Source: Rhodoferax sp. (GTDB lineage: Bacteria; Pseudomonadota; Gammaproteobacteria; Burkholderiales; Burkholderiaceae_C). Taken from it: 20,878 bases of DNA. Position numbers and translations under genes: made by a program. Positions 9,564 to 19,929 of the stretch are shown piece after piece. Below the pieces are notes generated by a model. That model was not told where the DNA came from, searched no databases, and saw only the letters and a list, made by a program, of their open reading frames with translations. The stretch covers positions 1 to 20,878 of the forward strand of contig JAKFXU010000376.1 of assembly GCA_021731215.1 (NCBI GenBank). The letters run 5' to 3'. How positions within the stretch are numbered: position 1 is the stretch's first letter; every line of letters begins with the position of its first letter.

Positions 9564-10355
9564 ATGCAAGTCATTACACCCGTCAGATTGGAAGTGGCCA
9601 GCGTCAACGGTGTGGCGCTGCATGCGGTGGACGAGACGCTGGACGCCGCTGATCTGCGCCAGCGCGCGTGTTCCGAGTTGCTACGTCAGGCCGCAGTTAG
9701 CGCGGGACTGCTGTCGGGCAGCGATGCACCTTCCGTGGACGGCCTGCTCAGTGAAGAAGCCAGTCGTGCAATTGAAACCCTACTGGACCAGAACCTGGCC
9801 ATTCCCGAGCCTTCAGAGGAGGCTTGTCAACGCCATCACGCCGCCAACCAAGCTTTCTACAGCAGCGGCGAACGGGTGAATGTGCGGCACATCCTGTTCG
9901 CCGTGACGCAAGGTGTGGATGTGGTGGCGCTGCGCAACCGCGCCGAGACCACGCTGCTCGACGTACGCTGCCATGACGGCCGCCAGGCCAACGACGAATT
10001 TGCCAAAGCCGCCGGCAAACTGTCGAACTGCCCCAGCGGCGCCGAAGGCGGCAGCTTGGGCTGGCTGAGCGCAAGCGACTGCGCCCCTGAATTTGCCAAG
10101 GAACTGTTCGGTCATGCCGAAGTCGGTGTACTGCCGCGCCTGGTGCACAGCCGTTTTGGCTTGCACGTGGTCGAAGTGCTGCAACGCGAGCCGGGCCTGC
10201 CACAGCCGTTTGAAGCCGTCGGTGGCGCAGTGGTCATGGCCTTGCGACAGAAAACCTACGTCACCGCCTTGCGCCAGTATTTGCGCCTGCTGGCCGGTGA
10301 AACGATCATTGACGGGGTCGATCTTGAGGCGGCCGACACGCCACTGGTCCAATAA
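9564..10355 (+). CDS. Parvulin-type peptidyl-prolyl cis-trans isomerase (NifM/PpiC-like) at the end of the nar operon
   Basis: A 263-residue protein with a helical N-terminal half (about residues 25-100) and a parvulin rotamase domain at about 105-208. The domain shows its core motifs: VRHILF at 107-112, GGSLGW at 162-167 and RFGLHVVEV at 197-205. There is no signal peptide or membrane segment, so it should act in the cytoplasm, like NifM rather than periplasmic SurA/PpiD. It begins ten bases after narI with GAGGA upstream, so it belongs to the nar operon. A role in folding or maturing NarG/NarH, alongside NarJ, is inferred from context. Similar isomerases are known at the ends of nar operons in Betaproteobacteria and Pseudomonas. 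Domain assignment is firm; the substrate is unknown. Confidence 0.88.
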   Translation: MQVITPVRLEVASVNGVALHAVDETLDAADLRQRACSELLRQAAVSAGLLSGSDAPSVDGLLSEEASRAIETLLDQNLAIPEPSEEACQRHHAANQAFYSSGERVNVRHILFAVTQGVDVVALRNRAETTLLDVRCHDGRQANDEFAKAAGKLSNCPSGAEGGSLGWLSASDCAPEFAKELFGHAEVGVLPRLVHSRFGLHVVEVLQREPGLPQPFEAVGGAVVMALRQKTYVTALRQYLRLLAGETIIDGVDLEAADTPLVQ

Positions 10356-10554: not shown

Positions 10555-10992
10555 ATGAATCAGGTCAAAACCAATGGGTTCACCAAACAAGTGGCCCGCA
10601 ACATATTTTACGGAGGAACCGTATTCTTCATATTCGTGTTTGCGGCACTCATATTTGACAGCGAGCGAAAAATCCCATTCAGATCGAATGCCGAGGCCAT
10701 CACGCCGGCGGTGGTGCGCGGCAAGCTGCTTTGGGAAACACGCAACTGCATCGGCTGCCACACCCTGTTGGGTGAAGGCGCGTACTTTGCGCCCGAATTG
10801 GGCAACGTCTATAAACGCCGTGGCGGCGAATTCATCAAGGCATGGATCAAGGGACAGCCCACCCAGGCTCCGGGACGCCGGCAAATGCCGCAATTCAACT
10901 TCACTGATGCACAGCTTGATGACCTGGTGGAGTTCCTGCGTTGGACGGGCAACATCAACACCGAAAAATGGCCTCCAAACATTGAAGGCTGA
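10555..10992 (+). CDS. norC: Nitric oxide reductase cytochrome c subunit NorC
   Basis: Small c-type cytochrome subunit of cNor; it takes electrons from periplasmic donors and passes them to NorB for reduction of NO to N2O. It has 145 residues, the usual length. One uncleaved N-terminal membrane anchor is visible at about residues 17-35, followed by a periplasmic domain with the heme c motif CIGCH (Cys65, Cys68, His69). Met111 in RRQMPQF is the likely sixth heme ligand. GAYFAPELGNVYKRRG and the C-terminal TGNINTEKWPP are typical NorC sequence. AGGAG stands nine bases before the ATG. It is first in the operon, behind the FNR/DNR box, and 29 bases before norB. Confidence 0.98.
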   Translation: MNQVKTNGFTKQVARNIFYGGTVFFIFVFAALIFDSERKIPFRSNAEAITPAVVRGKLLWETRNCIGCHTLLGEGAYFAPELGNVYKRRGGEFIKAWIKGQPTQAPGRRQMPQFNFTDAQLDDLVEFLRWTGNINTEKWPPNIEG

Positions 10993-11003
10993 AGCACGTC
11001 TGA

Positions 11004-12464
<1,461 letters not shown>

Positions 12465-12465
12465 G

Positions 12466-13263
12466 ATGATGGGATTGGCAGCGACACCTTTTTATGCACA
12501 ACAGGGGGGCGAATGCGCCCTCTTTGAGCACGCTTGGAAAAAGCAGTTGCCACTTCTTATCAAGGGTCCAACAGGTTGTGGAAAAACCCGATTTGTGGAA
12601 CATATGGCCGCTCGTCTTGGGCGGCCACTTATCACAGTGTCATGCCATGACGATCTCAGCGCCGCCGATCTTGTTGGGCGCTTTTTGATTGGCAACGGCA
12701 ACACTGTGTGGTCTGACGGCCCGCTGGCTCGTGCGGTTCGCAGCGGCGCCATTTGCTACCTCGATGAAGTGGTGGAGGCGCGCAAGGACACCACCGTGGT
12801 ATTGCATCCGCTGGCCGATGACCGGCGCATACTGCCAATCGAACGAACCGGTGAACAACTCGCGGCACCGCTCGAATTCATGCTGGTAATTTCCTACAAC
12901 CCGGGCTACCAGAATTTGCTCAAGGGCCTTAAACCCAGTACCCGACAACGTTTTTTGGCGTTAAGCATGAGCTATCCGGTTCCTGAAGTCGAGATCGCCA
13001 TTGTCCAGGTTGAAACCGGTGTTTCGACGGCATGCGCAACCCAACTGGTTCAACTGGCAAAGTCCTTGCGCTGCCTGACGGAGTACGACCTGGAGGAAAC
13101 CGCCAGCACCCGGCTGCTCGTTTCGGCAGGCCGTCTGGTGGCTTCGGGTTTGTCACTGCAGGTGGCCTGTAGAGCCGCCATTATTGACGCCCTGACGGAC
13201 GATGCCGCGACCGCCGAAGCCCTGGGTGAGGTCGTACGCGCCCTGGTCGGCGATGCCTCCTGA
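12466..13263 (+). CDS. norQ: NorQ, MoxR/CbbQ-family AAA+ ATPase for NO reductase activation
   Basis: A 265-residue AAA+ ATPase of the CbbQ/NirQ/NorQ group. Walker A is GPTGCGKT at residues 34-41 and Walker B is ICYLDE at about 96-101; ISYNPGY contributes the sensor-like region. Together with the vWA protein NorD, NorQ proteins are known to be needed for active NorCB, through insertion of the FeB iron. The ATG at 12466 lies one base after the norB stop and is followed by a second ATG at 12469, so either could be used. The longer frame from 12397 would overlap norB by 68 bases and is unlikely. No strong ribosome site is seen, so translation probably depends on coupling to norB. Confidence 0.95.
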   Translation: MMGLAATPFYAQQGGECALFEHAWKKQLPLLIKGPTGCGKTRFVEHMAARLGRPLITVSCHDDLSAADLVGRFLIGNGNTVWSDGPLARAVRSGAICYLDEVVEARKDTTVVLHPLADDRRILPIERTGEQLAAPLEFMLVISYNPGYQNLLKGLKPSTRQRFLALSMSYPVPEVEIAIVQVETGVSTACATQLVQLAKSLRCLTEYDLEETASTRLLVSAGRLVASGLSLQVACRAAIIDALTDDAATAEALGEVVRALVGDAS

Positions 13264-14251
13264 TTTTTCGCCCCTGACAGGGACTCTGCCAACCTCGGCC
13301 CAGGCTAAAACCAGGCCTGGGCAACTTCAAAAATTACGCCGTGCGGCACAGGCTGGATTCTTCCTGCTGTTCGTTCTGGCCCCAGCGCTCAATTTGCTGC
13401 GCTTTGACCTGTACGAGACACAGTTATGGTTCATGGGGATGCGCTGGTCGCTGGGAATCGATGCCCTTGCCAGCGGTGAAATCAATGCCACGCAAGCGGG
13501 CATCAGCATTGTGCTGCGCGCATTGTTGCCGGCGATCATACTCATCACCGTATTTCTGGGCATCGCTTACCGCTATGGCCGCCTCTACTGTGGTTGGCTA
13601 TGCCCCCATTTTTCAGCGGTTGAGACGCTCAATGATTTGTTGCATCGTGCCTGCGGAAAACTCAGCCTGTGGGATCGCAGCGCGACACCACGCGCCAACG
13701 TGAAGCCCAACGCCCGCTGGTGGCCGCTCTTTGCCCTGAGTTGCGCGGTGATCGGCTTCCTGTGGGCCATCACACTCCTGACGTATCTGCTGCCGCCAAC
13801 CGTGATCTGGGGAGGTCTGATACAGGGCACATTAACCCCCAACCAGACTCGCTTCATTGTGATAGGCAGCCTGGTATTCACTGCGGAATTTGCCTTCGCC
13901 AGGCATTTGTTTTGTCGCTTTGGCTGTGCCGTGGGCCTGTTTCAAAGTTTGGCCTGGATGGCCAACCCACGCGGCATGGTGGTTGCGTTTGCACGAGATC
14001 GCGCACGGGATTGCAGGAGTTGTGACCCGCCAAGAGGCTCCGCTTGTGACAATGCTTGTCCGATGCGGCTCAATCCCCGCAACATCAAACGCCTGATGTT
14101 CTCCTGCGTGCAGTGCGGCCAGTGCTTGAGCGCCTGCGACACTTCGCAGCAAGCCCAGGCGCGCGAACCCACCCTGCAATGGCAAGTGGGTGTTGAGGCT
14201 CTGCGCGAAACCCTGCGCCAGCGTCGCACAGAGCATTCAGAGAGTTCTTGA
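13253..14251 (+). CDS. CcoG/RdxA-like membrane protein with ferredoxin clusters, in the nor operon
   Basis: A 332-residue polytopic iron-sulfur protein. About four membrane segments are seen (roughly residues 33-50, 84-105, 157-190, 200-218). YGRLYCGWLCPH (Cys113, Cys117) and FCRFGC (Cys221, Cys225) correspond to the two membrane-proximal Cys pairs of the CcoG/NapH/NosR family. A bacterial ferredoxin domain follows: Cys254/257/265/269, with an unusual seven-residue gap between the second and third Cys, then a regular CVQCGQCLSAC at 285-295. It lacks the C-terminal Ig-like domain of CcoG (about 480 residues). The ATG overlaps norQ by 11 bases and the stop overlaps norD by one. A role in electron supply or metal-centre assembly for NorCB is inferred from position; no exact function is recognised. 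Confidence 0.8.
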   Translation: MPPDFSPLTGTLPTSAQAKTRPGQLQKLRRAAQAGFFLLFVLAPALNLLRFDLYETQLWFMGMRWSLGIDALASGEINATQAGISIVLRALLPAIILITVFLGIAYRYGRLYCGWLCPHFSAVETLNDLLHRACGKLSLWDRSATPRANVKPNARWWPLFALSCAVIGFLWAITLLTYLLPPTVIWGGLIQGTLTPNQTRFIVIGSLVFTAEFAFARHLFCRFGCAVGLFQSLAWMANPRGMVVAFARDRARDCRSCDPPRGSACDNACPMRLNPRNIKRLMFSCVQCGQCLSACDTSQQAQAREPTLQWQVGVEALRETLRQRRTEHSESS

Positions 14252-16083
14252 TGGAAGAAATGGTAGGCCGTTGGTGGCATAACGCTGTGACGCGTCTGGC
14301 GCAACGTGGCAACCCTGAAGCCATGGTTCATCTCAATGATGTCCAAAAGTCGATTTGTGTTCTGTTTCGGGCGGCCGGCGGCTCGGCCGCGTTGCGGTTG
14401 ACGCCCGCCTCCGAGCAGCGCATTGGTGGCCCGCGGAGCTGGTTGCAAAGAGTTGCCGGCAGTGGTGGCCGGGCCGCCACGGCACGGCTTGAACCCGATG
14501 TGCTCGCGCTGCCCGCGTCGCTGTCGGTATTTGATGATCGAACGCTGAACCGGGATTTATACCTCTGGCTTGCCATTCAATCGGCCAGCTTCGAACACAC
14601 CGGCAACTGGGTCGCCGATAACTGCCGCGCCAGTCTGCGAGGGCTGCACCACTTCCCCGGCTTTGCGCCAAGGTACAGGCAATTGCAGACCGCGCATCTT
14701 TCACAGCGTGCCGACCCAAGCCATCTGCGGGGAACAGCCGCTCTGGCCGAGGCCGCCATTCAGGCCGTCTTGCGCGGCGATGGCTTGAGTGCCTGCCAGG
14801 TTCAACCATTGGACGTGGCGCCGGTATGGATATGGATAGGCGCTGGAGATGCCCTGGCATGCGGCGCGGCACGAAGCGCAGGCACGCAGGATTCGGCGGA
14901 TTCCACGCGCACCCATTCGGCCGAGGACAAACAACGCCGGCGCACCGAACGCGCGCAGGAAAATCAAGAACGCAACGCCATGGTGCTGCCTTTTCGGGAC
15001 GAGGCTCTGATGTCCTGGAGCGAATTGGTGCGCGTCAACCGCAGCACCGACGACGAAGACGACGGCAACGCCGTTGCAGCAGCCAACGACATGGACAAGC
15101 TGTCGCTGGCGCCCGACGGTCAAACACTGGCATCGCGCGTTAAATTTGATCTGGACCTGCCGAGCACCAGTGCCGACGACCTGCCTCTGGGGCCTGGACT
15201 GCGCCTTCCCGAATGGGACTATCGGCGCGGCCTCATGCAGCCCGATCATTGTGTTGTACAAGTCATGCAGGCGCGCCCGGGCGCCCCTTTTGTGCCATCG
15301 CCGGCCCTGCGGTTGACGGCTCGCCGCGTGCGCCGCCGCCTGGAGACGCTGCGCGACGCACCCCGGCCGCAACACGGACAAGACAGCGGGGATGCCATTG
15401 ACCTCGATGCCTGGGTCCGCTTTAGCGCCGATCAATTCGGCCACTGCGGTCTGCGCAGCGATGCGCCGCCGGTCTACACACGCCACGCCCGCAGTGAACG
15501 CAGTCTGGCCACCTTGCTGCTGGCTGATTTATCGCTGTCGACCGACGCCTACGCGACGTCGCAAACCCGGGTCATTGACGTCATTCGCGATGCGCTGTTT
15601 GTTTTCGGCGAAGCCTTGTGCGCCGTGGGCGATCCGTTTGCCATGTGGGGGTTCAGCTCGGTACGTCGTCACCACGTCAGACTGCAGCACCTCAAGAGTT
15701 TTGACGAAGCATGGAATGAAACCACCCGGGCCCGTGTCGGTGCCGTTCGGCCCGGCTACTACACCCGCATGGGCGCCGCCATACGCCACGCCACCCTTCA
15801 ATTGGCGGGGCGGCCGGAGCGCCGCCGCCTGTTGATGCTGCTGACTGACGGCAAGCCCAATGATCTGGACATTTATGAAGGTCGCTACGGCATCGAGGAT
15901 ACCCGGCATGCCATTCATGAAGCACATGCCGCGGGCCTGTCACCTTTTTGCGTCACCATTGACGAATCGGGTCACGACTACCTTCCGCTGCTTTTTGGTC
16001 AACGGGGCTATGCGTTGGTGCACCGGCCCGAAGACCTGGTCAATCGATTAACGCAGGCTTGGGCAACACTGGCCCGTCAATAG
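14251..16083 (+). CDS. norD: NorD, von Willebrand A-domain protein for NO reductase activation
   Basis: A 610-residue protein with a C-terminal vWA domain and a long helical N-terminal part, the NorD architecture. The MIDAS metal site is intact: DLSLS at 426-430 (Asp-x-Ser-x-Ser), Thr505 in GYYTRMG and Asp533 in LTDGKPND. An acidic, polar stretch at about 265-275 probably links the two parts. NorD partners the NorQ ATPase to activate NO reductase; a MoxR-vWA pair is a recurring metallochaperone arrangement. The ATG at 14251 forms TGATG with the preceding stop; a TTG one codon earlier is possible. There is no signal peptide or membrane segment. In this operon the CcoG-like gene separates it from norQ. 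Confidence 0.95.
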   Translation: MEEMVGRWWHNAVTRLAQRGNPEAMVHLNDVQKSICVLFRAAGGSAALRLTPASEQRIGGPRSWLQRVAGSGGRAATARLEPDVLALPASLSVFDDRTLNRDLYLWLAIQSASFEHTGNWVADNCRASLRGLHHFPGFAPRYRQLQTAHLSQRADPSHLRGTAALAEAAIQAVLRGDGLSACQVQPLDVAPVWIWIGAGDALACGAARSAGTQDSADSTRTHSAEDKQRRRTERAQENQERNAMVLPFRDEALMSWSELVRVNRSTDDEDDGNAVAAANDMDKLSLAPDGQTLASRVKFDLDLPSTSADDLPLGPGLRLPEWDYRRGLMQPDHCVVQVMQARPGAPFVPSPALRLTARRVRRRLETLRDAPRPQHGQDSGDAIDLDAWVRFSADQFGHCGLRSDAPPVYTRHARSERSLATLLLADLSLSTDAYATSQTRVIDVIRDALFVFGEALCAVGDPFAMWGFSSVRRHHVRLQHLKSFDEAWNETTRARVGAVRPGYYTRMGAAIRHATLQLAGRPERRRLLMLLTDGKPNDLDIYEGRYGIEDTRHAIHEAHAAGLSPFCVTIDESGHDYLPLLFGQRGYALVHRPEDLVNRLTQAWATLARQ

Positions 16084-16255: not shown

Positions 16256-16954
16256 ATGAATACCGAACAGTTCGATATGCCGCGTTACCTGTCAGTGCTG
16301 CCACTGTTCAGCAACTTGTCGCAACTTGAACGAGAACGCTTAGCCCAAAGCTGCCAACTGAAACGATTTATCCGGGGTGATATGGTGTTTCGGGTGGGAG
16401 AGGAATGCGACGCTTTTCATGTCGTCGTGGTGGGGCAAATCAAACTGTACGTTGCCTCACCTTCCGGTCATGAGAAGGTGATTGAAATCGTGGGCCCTGG
16501 TCACAGCTTTGCAGAAGCCATGATGTTTCTCGGTATGCCCTGTATTTTGAACGCTCAAGCACTGGTTGACACCTTGCTTTTGCGTGTCAGCAAGCAGTCC
16601 GTATTCAGTGAAATAGAACGCGATCCGCGCTTTTCAATGCACATGCTTGCCGGCATCTCGCGTCGGCTACACGGGTTGGTTCGAGACGTAGAGGGCTATG
16701 CCTTGCACAGTGGCATGCAACGGCTGATCGGCTACCTGCTGCGGGAGGTTGAGGACGAAAATGCCGACAGGATTGGCGCCGTCACCGTTGCCTTGCCCGT
16801 GAGCAAAGCCACCATTGCCTCACGCCTGTCGCTAACTCCCGAGTATTTCTCTCGCGTTTTGCACGAGCTTGAAGCCGAAGGTCTGATCGAAATAGACAAG
16901 CGCGAGGTCCGTATTCTTGATGTACAACGCCTCGCCAGCTACGGCTCACATTGA
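16256..16954 (+). CDS. dnr: DNR-type Crp/Fnr family transcriptional regulator
   Basis: A 232-residue Crp/Fnr protein: a cyclic-nucleotide-binding-like sensor fold (about 15-125), a dimerisation helix (about 125-150) and a C-terminal winged helix-turn-helix (about 160-225). GHSFAEAMMFLGMP, LTPEYFSRVLHELEAEGL and DKREVRILD closely resemble Pseudomonas DNR. Glu196, Ser199 and Arg200 form the E-x-x-S-R recognition pattern of FNR-like proteins that bind TTGAT half-sites. The N-terminal cysteine cluster of oxygen-sensing FNR is absent, so direct [4Fe-4S] oxygen sensing is unlikely; NO sensing as in DNR is the family inference. I prefer the ATG at 16256 because the frame upstream of it is promoter DNA. 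It lies 172 bases after norD, the same way round, and is convergent with nirN. Confidence 0.9.
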   Translation: MNTEQFDMPRYLSVLPLFSNLSQLERERLAQSCQLKRFIRGDMVFRVGEECDAFHVVVVGQIKLYVASPSGHEKVIEIVGPGHSFAEAMMFLGMPCILNAQALVDTLLLRVSKQSVFSEIERDPRFSMHMLAGISRRLHGLVRDVEGYALHSGMQRLIGYLLREVEDENADRIGAVTVALPVSKATIASRLSLTPEYFSRVLHELEAEGLIEIDKREVRILDVQRLASYGSH

Positions 16955-17130: not shown

Positions 17131-17153
17131 CACCAGCCAATCAATGGCTGGTG
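17131..17153. other. Perfect hairpin at the nirN 3' end, between convergent genes
   Basis: CACCAGCCA (17131-17139) and TGGCTGGTG (17145-17153) form a nine-base-pair GC-rich stem with a five-base loop. The nirN stop codon (complement of 17141-17143) lies in the loop, so half the stem encodes the last residues of NirN. Neither side is followed by a T-run, so it is not a classic intrinsic terminator. It could protect the 3' ends of transcripts or aid bidirectional termination for dnr and nirN. Confidence 0.7.
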
Positions 17154-18727
17154 CCCTCTGAGCGACTGATTTTATTGAACACATTGTATTTTCCGGAAGG
17201 TTTCTTCATCTTGATCCGCTTGACAACCTCCAGCGTCACTGCGTCGTAAATAACCAGCTCTCCATCAATTTCCCAAATGCTGACCACCGCATATTTCCCA
17301 TCCCGCGTGAATTCTGTATGCGCTGCAATCTTGCCTGGGCTGGGCTTGAGTTGCTTGACGATTTCCAACGTTTTTTTGTCGATGATCTGGATCACATCGT
17401 TATTTTTTTTATCGTTAAAGACATCGACCCAGGCATACGGTGTCTTCTCATGGCTGCGCATGAAGAAGCCAGGCCCCAGCGTGGGGATCTGCTTGATGGT
17501 CTGCCATGACTTCATGTCGATCACCGACACCACGCCATCTTTCAGGTTGGGCGTCGCCATCACGGGCCGGCCCTGGTAGGACCAGGATATGCCGGAGCCC
17601 AAGTGCGGCAAACCCGGCAGGCCAACATCGGCTGTTTTGCGCCCGCTATTGAGGTTCACCACCTGACCCTGACCGCCGCGCGAGGAGCCAAACACATGGT
17701 CATAGGCGGGGTCGAAGAAGAAGTCGTCCAGATAATCATCGAGCTGGATGCGACGCGGCGCAAAAGGCCCTTTGACGCCAAGCCCCGGCGTCAGCCGGTT
17801 GTCTGGCGCCCGGTCTGCGTCAACCGGGGGCGTCTTTTCGGCGTAGCTAAGCTCCCATACTTCCGCAATGTCTTTCAGGGCCGCTATGAAGCTTTTGCGC
17901 GGGGCGGCGTCATAGACGGCCGACACGCGTGACGACTTGCCGCTATCGTCCTTGACGTCGATCACCCGGATGGGCGACAGGTCGCGGGTGTCGAGCGCTA
18001 CCAGCGTATGGGGAAAGTAGTTGGCGACCAGGGCGAAGCGCCCGTCACTGGACACCGCCAGATTGCGCGTATTGATGCCGGCCCGAATTTCGGCCACCAG
18101 TGTCAGATTCCAGATGTCATATTTGGCAACCCAGCCGTCGCGCGAAGCGAAATAAACATAACGCCCATCAGGCGAGAACTTGGGCCCGCCATGCAGCGCG
18201 TAGCGGGTTGGAAAACGCGTGATCGGCTCGAACTTGTCGCCATCCAGAATGGTCGCATGATGGTCACCAAGCTCGACCACCACGAACAGATTGAGCGGAT
18301 CCGCCGTGAAGACAGGCTTGCTTGGCAGGTTCTCCGCCTTGACATGTTCAACCCGTGAGGCGCGGATTTCATCCATGCCCCAGCTCGGCGTCTTCACCAG
18401 CGGCGTATAGATCAGTTCCGTGAGTGCCGTGATCTCTTGCGCCGTCAGGCTGGCGCCATACGCCGGCATCTGTGTCGCCTGGCGACCCTCTGTGATGGTT
18501 TTGATTGCATCGGGCCGACGCAAGCGCCCCAAATTACCGGGCAGCAAGGCCGGCCCGGTTCCACCCAAACGGTCAGCACCATGACAGGAGGCGCAATGGG
18601 TTTGATAGACCTTATTGGTATCCGCTGTCAAAGGCTTGTCCGTGACCGCCCAGGCCGCAGGCAGCACGGCGCTGGCCAGCATCACAATCAGACTGGGCAA
18701 GAGTTTGTGAATCAGTGGCGCGCTCAT
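17141..18727 (-). CDS. nirN: NirN, c-type cytochrome with heme d1-binding beta-propeller
   Basis: A 528-residue periplasmic protein. A signal peptide is visible (residues 1-27, cleaved after AWA), then a cytochrome c domain with CASCH (Cys45, Cys48, His49) and likely ligand Met87 in TQMPAYG, then an eight-bladed d1-type propeller. His179 in RYALHGGPKFSPDGRY sits where NirF/NirN/NirS have the proximal d1 ligand. The short GADRLGGTGPALLP after the heme motif and the FPTRYALHGG element favour NirN over nitrite reductase NirS. NirN is known to oxidise dihydro-heme d1 to heme d1 and help deliver it to NirS. I chose the ATG at 18727, which overlaps the nirJ stop by four bases (ATGA); a longer frame to 18982 only shadows nirJ. 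Confidence 0.9.
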   Translation of the reverse strand: MSAPLIHKLLPSLIVMLASAVLPAAWAVTDKPLTADTNKVYQTHCASCHGADRLGGTGPALLPGNLGRLRRPDAIKTITEGRQATQMPAYGASLTAQEITALTELIYTPLVKTPSWGMDEIRASRVEHVKAENLPSKPVFTADPLNLFVVVELGDHHATILDGDKFEPITRFPTRYALHGGPKFSPDGRYVYFASRDGWVAKYDIWNLTLVAEIRAGINTRNLAVSSDGRFALVANYFPHTLVALDTRDLSPIRVIDVKDDSGKSSRVSAVYDAAPRKSFIAALKDIAEVWELSYAEKTPPVDADRAPDNRLTPGLGVKGPFAPRRIQLDDYLDDFFFDPAYDHVFGSSRGGQGQVVNLNSGRKTADVGLPGLPHLGSGISWSYQGRPVMATPNLKDGVVSVIDMKSWQTIKQIPTLGPGFFMRSHEKTPYAWVDVFNDKKNNDVIQIIDKKTLEIVKQLKPSPGKIAAHTEFTRDGKYAVVSIWEIDGELVIYDAVTLEVVKRIKMKKPSGKYNVFNKISRSEGTSH

Positions 18728-19929
18728 TCGGCAATCCTCGCCCGGCGCACCCCGACATAGGGTTTCATCTGGACCCGCGCGCTTTCGCCGACCAGCCCGA
18801 TTTCGCCGTCCGACAAATAGCAGGCCGGGTCTTCCTGCCAGGCATCGCCGGTCAACTGCAAAGCGCGCACCCGGGTGTTGCCACCGCACACGTCGAAATA
18901 GCTGCATTTGCCGCAACGCCCCTTGATCGGACGCGGCACCGCCTTGAGCCCCGCCATCAGCGGGTCCGAGGTATCGCGCCAAATGTCGGAGAAGGCGCGC
19001 TCGCGCACATTGCCCAGGTTATGGTGCCACCAGAAGGTGTCTGGGTGGACATTGCCCAGGTTGTCGATATTGGCGACATTGACGCCAGAGGAGTTGCCGC
19101 CCCACTGCGCCAGCTTGGCGCGCAGCGCCGCCTCGCGCTGCGGAAAATGACGGTGCGCCCAATGCAGCAAGTACACACCGTCGGCATCGTTATTGCCGGT
19201 GACGAATTCCTTTTCTACCCCGTTTTCAATGTTCTTCCAGCAGGTATCGAACAGCAAATCCATCGCCTTGCGGGTGGTGTCCAGGAACGCATCACGGCCG
19301 CGATTGGTGTTGCCGCGGCCCGCGTAGTTGAGGTGCGACAAATAGAACTTATCAATTCCCTCATCGTCCACCAGCTTGAGCAAGGCCGGCAGGTCGTGCG
19401 CATTGTCTTGTGTCAGCGTAAAGCGCACACCGATCTTGATACCTGCATCACGGCACAGCTTGACGCCATGCAGCGAGGCATCAAAAGCGCCTTCCTTGCG
19501 ACGAAACTTGTCATGGGTTTCACGGATGCCGTCCAGACTGATGCCGACATAGTCAAAACCGATGGCTGCGATGCGCTCGATATTCGATTCATCCACCAGC
19601 GTCCCGTTGGTGGACAGACCGACATAAAAACCCATCTCTTTGGCGCGGCGTGAAATGTCAAAAATATCGGTGCGCAGCAGCGGCTCACCGCCCGACAAAA
19701 TCAGCACCGGCACGCCGAACTCACGCAGGTTATCCATCACACCATAGACTTCCGCCGTACTCAATTCGCCGGCGAAATCCTTGTCTGCCGAAATGGAATA
19801 ACAATGCTTGCAGGTCAGGTTGCAGCGACGAATCAGGTTCCAGATCACCACCGGACCCGGTGGATTGCGTTTGGGGCCGAGCGGCGTGGGGTGTGCGATT
19901 TCTCGCATGTATTGGGTAATTCGAAACAT
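18724..19929 (-). CDS. nirJ: NirJ, radical SAM heme d1 biosynthesis protein
   Basis: A 401-residue radical SAM enzyme with a C-terminal SPASM-like region. The SAM-cluster motif is CNLTCKHC (Cys36, Cys40, Cys43), followed by the SAM-binding GGEP motif in LILSGGEPLLRTD. Auxiliary cluster cysteines are Cys339, Cys342, Cys348 and Cys370. NirJ removes propionate side chains from 12,18-didecarboxysiroheme to install the keto groups of heme d1. GAGGAAA lies on the coding strand just before the ATG at 19929. It starts 10 bases after nirH and overlaps nirN by four bases. Length and residue pattern are normal; PqqE-like or AhbC/D enzymes are relatives, but the Nir context settles the call. Confidence 0.96.
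   Translation of the reverse strand: MFRITQYMREIAHPTPLGPKRNPPGPVVIWNLIRRCNLTCKHCYSISADKDFAGELSTAEVYGVMDNLREFGVPVLILSGGEPLLRTDIFDISRRAKEMGFYVGLSTNGTLVDESNIERIAAIGFDYVGISLDGIRETHDKFRRKEGAFDASLHGVKLCRDAGIKIGVRFTLTQDNAHDLPALLKLVDDEGIDKFYLSHLNYAGRGNTNRGRDAFLDTTRKAMDLLFDTCWKNIENGVEKEFVTGNNDADGVYLLHWAHRHFPQREAALRAKLAQWGGNSSGVNVANIDNLGNVHPDTFWWHHNLGNVRERAFSDIWRDTSDPLMAGLKAVPRPIKGRCGKCSYFDVCGGNTRVRALQLTGDAWQEDPACYLSDGEIGLVGESARVQMKPYVGVRRARIAE

Follow-up and report, generated by a model that had tools for sequence, protein, structure and literature searches.

The window, which is the whole stretch of 20,878 nucleotides analysed here, carries the genes of a cytochrome c-dependent NO reductase (cNOR) in the order norC, norB, norQ, FDX, norD and a Crp-type regulator (Table 1). 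FDX is a label coined here for an otherwise unnamed gene. The original prediction had placed a gene between norQ and norD in overlapping frames, and its ORF, overlaps and domains are confirmed. FDX starts with ATG at 13253 and ends with TGA at 14249-14251; the norQ stop codon (13261-13263) falls inside it, giving an 11-base overlap, and in the string TGATG the FDX stop and the norD start (ATG at 14251) have one base in common. Because of these overlaps, the three genes norQ, FDX and norD appear to be translationally coupled. The FNR/DNR-type box likely drives norCBQ-FDX-norD; a scan of the window allowing up to two mismatches gave 17 matches against 5.6 expected, with two matches at one mismatch.

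Table 1. Features of the nor cluster in the window
Feature	Position	Strand	Description
FNR/DNR-type box TTGAACCGGATCAA	10480..10493	+	one mismatch to TTGAT-N4-ATCAA; ~60 bases 5' of norC
norC	10555..10992	+	cytochrome c subunit; cytochrome c domain in Pfam
norB	11022..12464	+	catalytic subunit of cytochrome c-dependent NO reductase; COX1-type
norQ	12466..13263	+	MoxR-type AAA+ ATPase; AAA_5 and CbbQ_C domains
FDX	13253..14251	+	332 aa; four-helix membrane protein, flanked by norQ and norD
CX3CP motif 1 (C113-X3-C117-P118-H119)	13589..13609	+	both Cys, Pro and His invariant in 60/60
Second CX3C (H218-L-F-C221-X3-C225)	13904..13927	+	His and Cys invariant; no Pro
4Fe-4S motif 1 (C254-X2-C257-X7-C265-X3-C269)	14012..14059	+	unusual, stretched spacing; Pro next
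4Fe-4S motif 2 (C285-X2-C288-X2-C291-X3-C295)	14105..14137	+	regular spacing
norD	14251..16083	+	VWA-domain protein
Crp/Fnr-family regulator	16256..16954	+	after norD

Two other parts of the window flank the cluster. Between narI and norC, at 9564-10355, lies a PPIC-type prolyl isomerase that is weakly NifM-like, and matches to this type recur 5' of norC in 7 of 80 named loci (L092, L093, L143, L148, L150, L156 and L162). On the minus strand 3' of the nor cluster, 17141-19929 holds a protein that combines cytochrome d1 and cytochrome c domains, which we take to be NirN-like, and NirJ (648.5 bits, above the cutoff).

FDX has the core of the CcoG/NapH/NosR superfamily, with four predicted helices, two CX3C(P) pairs and two 4Fe-4S motifs, the second pair being without Pro: C221-X3-C225 is followed by Ala. 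In Pfam, Fer4_5 alone is found (E up to 0.001). From 123 complete copies among 143, incomplete or broken copies having been left out beforehand, 60 representatives with less than 75% identity were taken. In all 60 of these divergent members, twelve Cys (113, 117, 221, 225, 254, 257, 265, 269, 285, 288, 291 and 295) as well as H119 and H218 are invariant, and an alignment of 58 of the 60 agrees on the invariant residues. H119 stands right after CX3CP, a place taken by Gln in the compared CcoG rows and by Val or Tyr in NapH-type rows.

To establish how FDX is related to known members of the superfamily, matches and trees were compared. Among 300 genomes of the order, the best matches per genome split sharply, 31 genomes having E below 1e-30 and the next lying at ~1e-23. 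In a tree of 40 rows, 23 of 23 FDX rows form one group with support of 100/94 and in 100% of 200 bootstrap trees; this tree has a midpoint (arbitrary) root and long branches, and its 17 non-FDX rows are CcoG, CcoG-like and NapH-type, without NosR, YccM or MauN. The grouping supports FDX as a separate clade of the CcoG/NapH superfamily. FDX was tried and rejected as a CcoG (TIGR02745, 35.1 bits against a cutoff of 316.7) and as a NapH (NF007013, 47.2 bits against 234; TIGR02163, 49.1 bits against 213). The same genome has a true CcoG on contig C107 (L216; 520.7 bits) with the Ig-like FixG_C domain. In the Pfam scan, FixG_C (PF11614) is absent from FDX, and no FMN-binding domain of the NosR type is found in its 332 aa at E up to 0.001. 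The missing Ig-like domain had been read as a mark of nor specificity, which does not hold, since both an annotated NapH (L218; 404.9 and 339.8 bits on the NapH models), which at 303 aa ends shortly past its Fe-S region, and E. coli YccM lack the domain as well (the latter according to part of PMC7558416).

The neighbourhood of FDX is strongly conserved. Of 153 fetched stretches, 144 have FDX flanked by norQ on its 5' side and by norD on its 3' side, all three genes sharing one strand. Split into four sets, which may share species, the counts are 27/31 for the order, 80/80 for named genomes (the best 80 of 570 confirmed, so closest relatives only), 25/29 for the class (29 fetched of 36 genomes below 1e-30, besides the window) and 12/13 phylum-wide (one stretch in the same class and 12 outside it). 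'Between' here means order rather than contact, with intervals of up to ~8 kb in L037 and L074; a few stretches hold further genes besides FDX in the norQ-norD interval. This placement of FDX is far beyond chance. Six of the nine exceptions are contig ends: four (L033, L083, L175 and L199) have norD and stop before norQ, L082 has norQ and stops inside FDX, and the contig of L190, 2.7 kb long, carries hemerythrin, FDX and part of norD. In L181 hemerythrin precedes FDX and norD follows it, norQ being absent within 1.5 kb; L232 has the order norB-FDX-norD, and L078, a second FDX copy in genome G218, adjoins COX3-domain (norE-like) and norF-like genes. A linkage to ccoNOQP or ccoHIS of the CcoG kind was seen neither in the window nor in these 144 stretches, where the neighbours are norQ and norD, and napG is absent beside FDX in the window. 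Tree and linkage together bear out the proposal of a nor-specific subfamily; scattered close homologs without a link to nor genes, which the original prediction had named as its refutation, were looked for and none came to light.

Plasmid and split clusters show how far this bond reaches. With nor names given here from annotated domains, a Sphaerotilus plasmid has norC-B-Q-FDX-D, an Amphritea plasmid has norC-B-FDX-norE-F-Q-D with FDX directly 3' of norB, and Thiothrix pTfr153 has norC-B, two other genes, FDX and nnrS, with norD ~13 kb on; the FDX relatives on these three records are annotated '4Fe-4S binding protein' only. Where norQ-norD is split from the norCB operon, FDX stays with norQ-norD: ~26 kb off in G061, on another contig in G035 and convergent in G080. 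That FDX tracks norQD only is weakened by Thiothrix and Amphritea and is kept as a tendency; these two arrangements imply that the bond of FDX is to nor as a whole.

Among the 300 genomes of the order, FDX occurs in 30 of 57 carriers of a close norB (480 bits or more) and in 1 of the 243 others (Fisher p ~2e-24, species not being independent). The lone case among the 243, G159, is a fragmented assembly in which a piece of FDX lies beside norQ and the small membrane protein TM3 at a contig end. In 27 of the 57 close-norB genomes no FDX was found, a count that includes G122, whose contig ends right after norQ-TM3. On quick norB and norQ trees (49 and 53 rows), FDX presence needs ~8 parsimonious gains or losses, of which at least three and at least five, respectively, fall on firm branches. 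FDX is thus nor-specific yet dispensable, and has been gained or lost several times. Paracoccus norCBQDEF, described in part of PMC9976466 and without an FDX-like gene, yields active cNOR in E. coli; given this and the many close-norB genomes that lack FDX, a general requirement for FDX can be dismissed.

Other genes in the interval were surveyed in 155 same-strand norQ-norD pairs from overlapping sets; one pair, L212, does not belong to a nor cluster. A bacterioferritin gene separates FDX from norD in L044 (7194-7655) and takes the place of FDX in the sister genome L085 (11001-11468; TIGR00754, 156.6 bits, cutoff 125.55); these 2 of 155 intervals, in related loci, are probably one event. Hemerythrin genes are found 3' of FDX in L037, L041 and L073 and 5' of it in L181 and L190. 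Several more genes lie between FDX and norD in L037, L041 and L074, those of L041 including DUF2249 and FeS_assembly_P proteins (Pfam). TM3, of 132 aa, is often located between norQ and FDX (L008:1107-1505, L030:1091-1507, L020:2393-2788 and many others) and occurs without FDX in five loci (L059, L060, L061, L066 and L085). Some TM3 homologs are called Tic20-like or have PF09685, and the copy tested had no Pfam or NCBIfam match. A decayed FDX in the L059 interval was considered and rejected, as nothing in the interval matches FDX at E 1e-4 or better and its content is TM3 plus short ORFs that do not resemble FDX. In the window, the nor interval has no bacterioferritin, hemerythrin or TM3.

Some of these neighbours would suit a part for FDX in the control of NO or oxidative damage, in which it re-reduces or repairs NO-struck iron centres, or senses NO for the nor operon, alongside hemerythrin- or NnrS-type proteins. 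Consistent with such a role are the genes for hemerythrin, DUF2249 and FeS_assembly_P proteins that separate FDX from norD in some clusters, hemerythrin 5' of FDX in two loci and nnrS 3' of FDX in Thiothrix. We nevertheless consider it improbable, as neighbours of this kind occur in a minority of clusters and the constant ones are norQ and norD.

In an AlphaFold model of FDX (mean pLDDT 81.2), four helices are predicted confidently, and the Fe-S part is weaker (~52-74). The original prediction had described two membrane CxxxC pairs and two ferredoxin-type motifs; the pairs and motifs are there, and the pairs are predicted at cytoplasmic helix ends rather than within the membrane. Over 58 rows, with segments set from the model and unequal in length, the Cys-bearing loops and the Fe-S domain average 8.6, 3.4 and 13.4 Lys+Arg, and the outer loops 2.5 and 0.3. 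Because the Cys-bearing loops are positively charged (positive-inside rule), all twelve Cys are predicted to be on the cytoplasmic side, the same as NorQ and NorD. The conserved His of FDX in these rows are 119 and 218 only, both in predicted cytoplasmic parts, and no conserved His that could serve as a heme ligand is found within a transmembrane helix as delimited by the model. By analogy, NapH speaks against this cytoplasmic reading, its 4Fe-4S clusters being assigned to a periplasmic domain in a portion of PMC3475470. NapH depends on its first motif to contact NapF (PMC5928378, in part), and a title in the reference list of that paper calls NapF cytoplasmic. Structure searches for a solved relative of FDX gave no credible match.

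The predicted sidedness favours a role in FeB maturation over supply to the periplasmic NorC. Electron feed to NorC had been offered as one function of the gene and is disfavoured by the predicted cytoplasmic redox centres and the lack of a conserved transmembrane His for heme. A NapH/NosR-like conduit, with FDX oxidising quinol and feeding NorCB during catalysis so that the cytochrome bc1 route is bypassed, is unlikely on the same grounds, which leave no evident path to the NorC heme. FDX also has norQ and norD as neighbours, no NapG-like partner adjoins it, it has no FMN domain, and it stays with norQD in the three split clusters. In favour of a conduit, the best NCBIfam match of FDX is NapH-type (49 bits, far below cutoff), NapH and NosR, of the same core type, move electrons for periplasmic reductases (PMC5928378, in part), one paper calls the NapH clusters periplasmic (PMC3475470, in part), and FDX is nearer norB than norD in Amphritea and Thiothrix. 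A structural anchor that docks NorQ-NorD on NorB, its clusters being structural or regulatory, would also fit the close linkage to norQ/norD and a Cys-rich face predicted to be cytoplasmic, and lineages without FDX suggest that the chaperone is able to work alone. That both CX3C pairs are as invariant as the cluster Cys argues for redox work rather than docking, and makes an anchor quite improbable.

We tentatively favour, at slightly less than an even chance, a role for FDX with the NorQ-NorD chaperone in the maturation of cNOR, its electrons keeping or making iron ferrous. The four-helix membrane part would take electrons, probably from quinol, and pass them via the Cys pairs and two predicted 4Fe-4S clusters on the cytoplasmic face; there they would maintain or produce Fe2+ as NorQ-NorD opens NorB to let FeB in. 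We infer the electron donor, the electron acceptor and iron as the substrate; the link to iron is drawn from the role of norQ and norD and from a few neighbours, and an FeB reductase is the best of several ideas. Parts of PMC9976466 report that NorQ and NorD are essential for FeB insertion, and NorQ-NorD is thought to remodel cNOR for FeB entry (PMC9976466 and PMC13036017, both in part). The former paper, in the portion cited, leaves the Fe2+ source for FeB open, naming free Fe2+, iron chaperones or ferritin. It also states that solubilised FeB-less cNOR was not reactivated by purified NorQD alone, and that adding a soluble cell fraction to FeB-deficient membranes increased their activity 2.5-fold, a partial reactivation. 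Iron reduction by FDX is less backed by the analogy with CcoG, because CcoG, with two tetranuclear clusters, reduces Cu(II) and not Fe(III) in the account given in part of PMC7558416.

Loci of other CcoG-like proteins from the same order and class, for which we coined the labels CcoG2 and CcoG2s, were also inspected. CcoG2s has a single VWA gene directly beside it in L238, L239, L244, L246 and L248 and, in L212, a MoxR-VWA pair; these are 6 of its 12 loci, all away from nor. CcoG2 in L205, L208, L243 and L249 is on the same stretch as a gene read as CcoN-like from a partial ORF, and in L205 a FixO-domain gene near CcoG2 is confirmed by Pfam.

In a stronger form of the maturation proposal, FDX would be a dedicated ferric-iron reductase and the membrane platform of the NorQ-NorD machine, the missing Fe2+ source for FeB, within a wider scheme that pairs an Fe-S membrane protein of the CcoG type with a MoxR/VWA chaperone to load metal into an enzyme. 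The wider scheme is suggested by the second such pairing, that of CcoG2s away from nor; we regard this form as doubtful. If true, the notion of a metal reductase, exemplified by CcoG with copper, would come to cover iron and MoxR/VWA chaperones as well. How, and in what redox state, FeB iron enters NO reductase is the question for which FDX offers a concrete candidate for the missing step. The gene has norQ and norD on either side both in this class and in at least one further class of the phylum; now annotated only as '4Fe-4S binding protein', it marks a large proportion of cNOR clusters. No description of it was found in the open-access literature searched, which covers little of the subscription literature. 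One table gives norQ as OHM77_13040 and norD as OHM77_13030, numbers that would allow for a single unlisted locus tag in between (PMC10390337, in part).

Among known systems, NapH, a quinol dehydrogenase ferredoxin subunit, resembles FDX in length, in its four-helix core with two CX3C pairs, in having two C-terminal 4Fe-4S motifs and in being without an Ig-like domain. FDX is set apart from NapH-type rows at 100/99 on the midpoint-rooted tree with its long branches, and no napG adjoins it. NapH and NosR have in common a four-helix core with two CX3CP motifs, which matter in electron transfer (PMC5928378, in part). NosR, which is absent from the tree, and FDX are of this common membrane core type and both are tied to a denitrification enzyme (same source, in part), but NosR has an FMN-binding domain and FDX has none. 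CcoG2 and CcoG2s have the core in common with FDX, and an RH before the second CX3C pair is seen in all their rows shown except L212, as in FDX; with 104-118 bits to CcoG in three scanned, they stand apart from FDX on the tree and are not at nor.

CcoG/RdxA/FixG proteins, too, are polytopic and have two CX3C pairs as well as two 4Fe-4S motifs. On the midpoint-rooted tree, the rows nearest to FDX, found on its side of the root, are those of CcoG and its look-alikes, and CcoG is reported to reduce Cu(II) (PMC7558416, in part); both would be in line with a cupric reductase that keeps copper reduced or off the FeB site. Such a function is very improbable for FDX: the metal of cNOR is iron, not copper, the same genome has its own full CcoG, and FDX differs from CcoG in having CPH for CPQ, a second motif that has lost its Pro, a stretched first cluster motif, no FixG_C and a link to nor. 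What the two proteins share beyond their core is the kind of enzyme at hand, as CcoG serves the assembly of cbb3 oxidase, an enzyme of the heme-copper oxidase superfamily, and FDX would likewise be accessory to such an enzyme.
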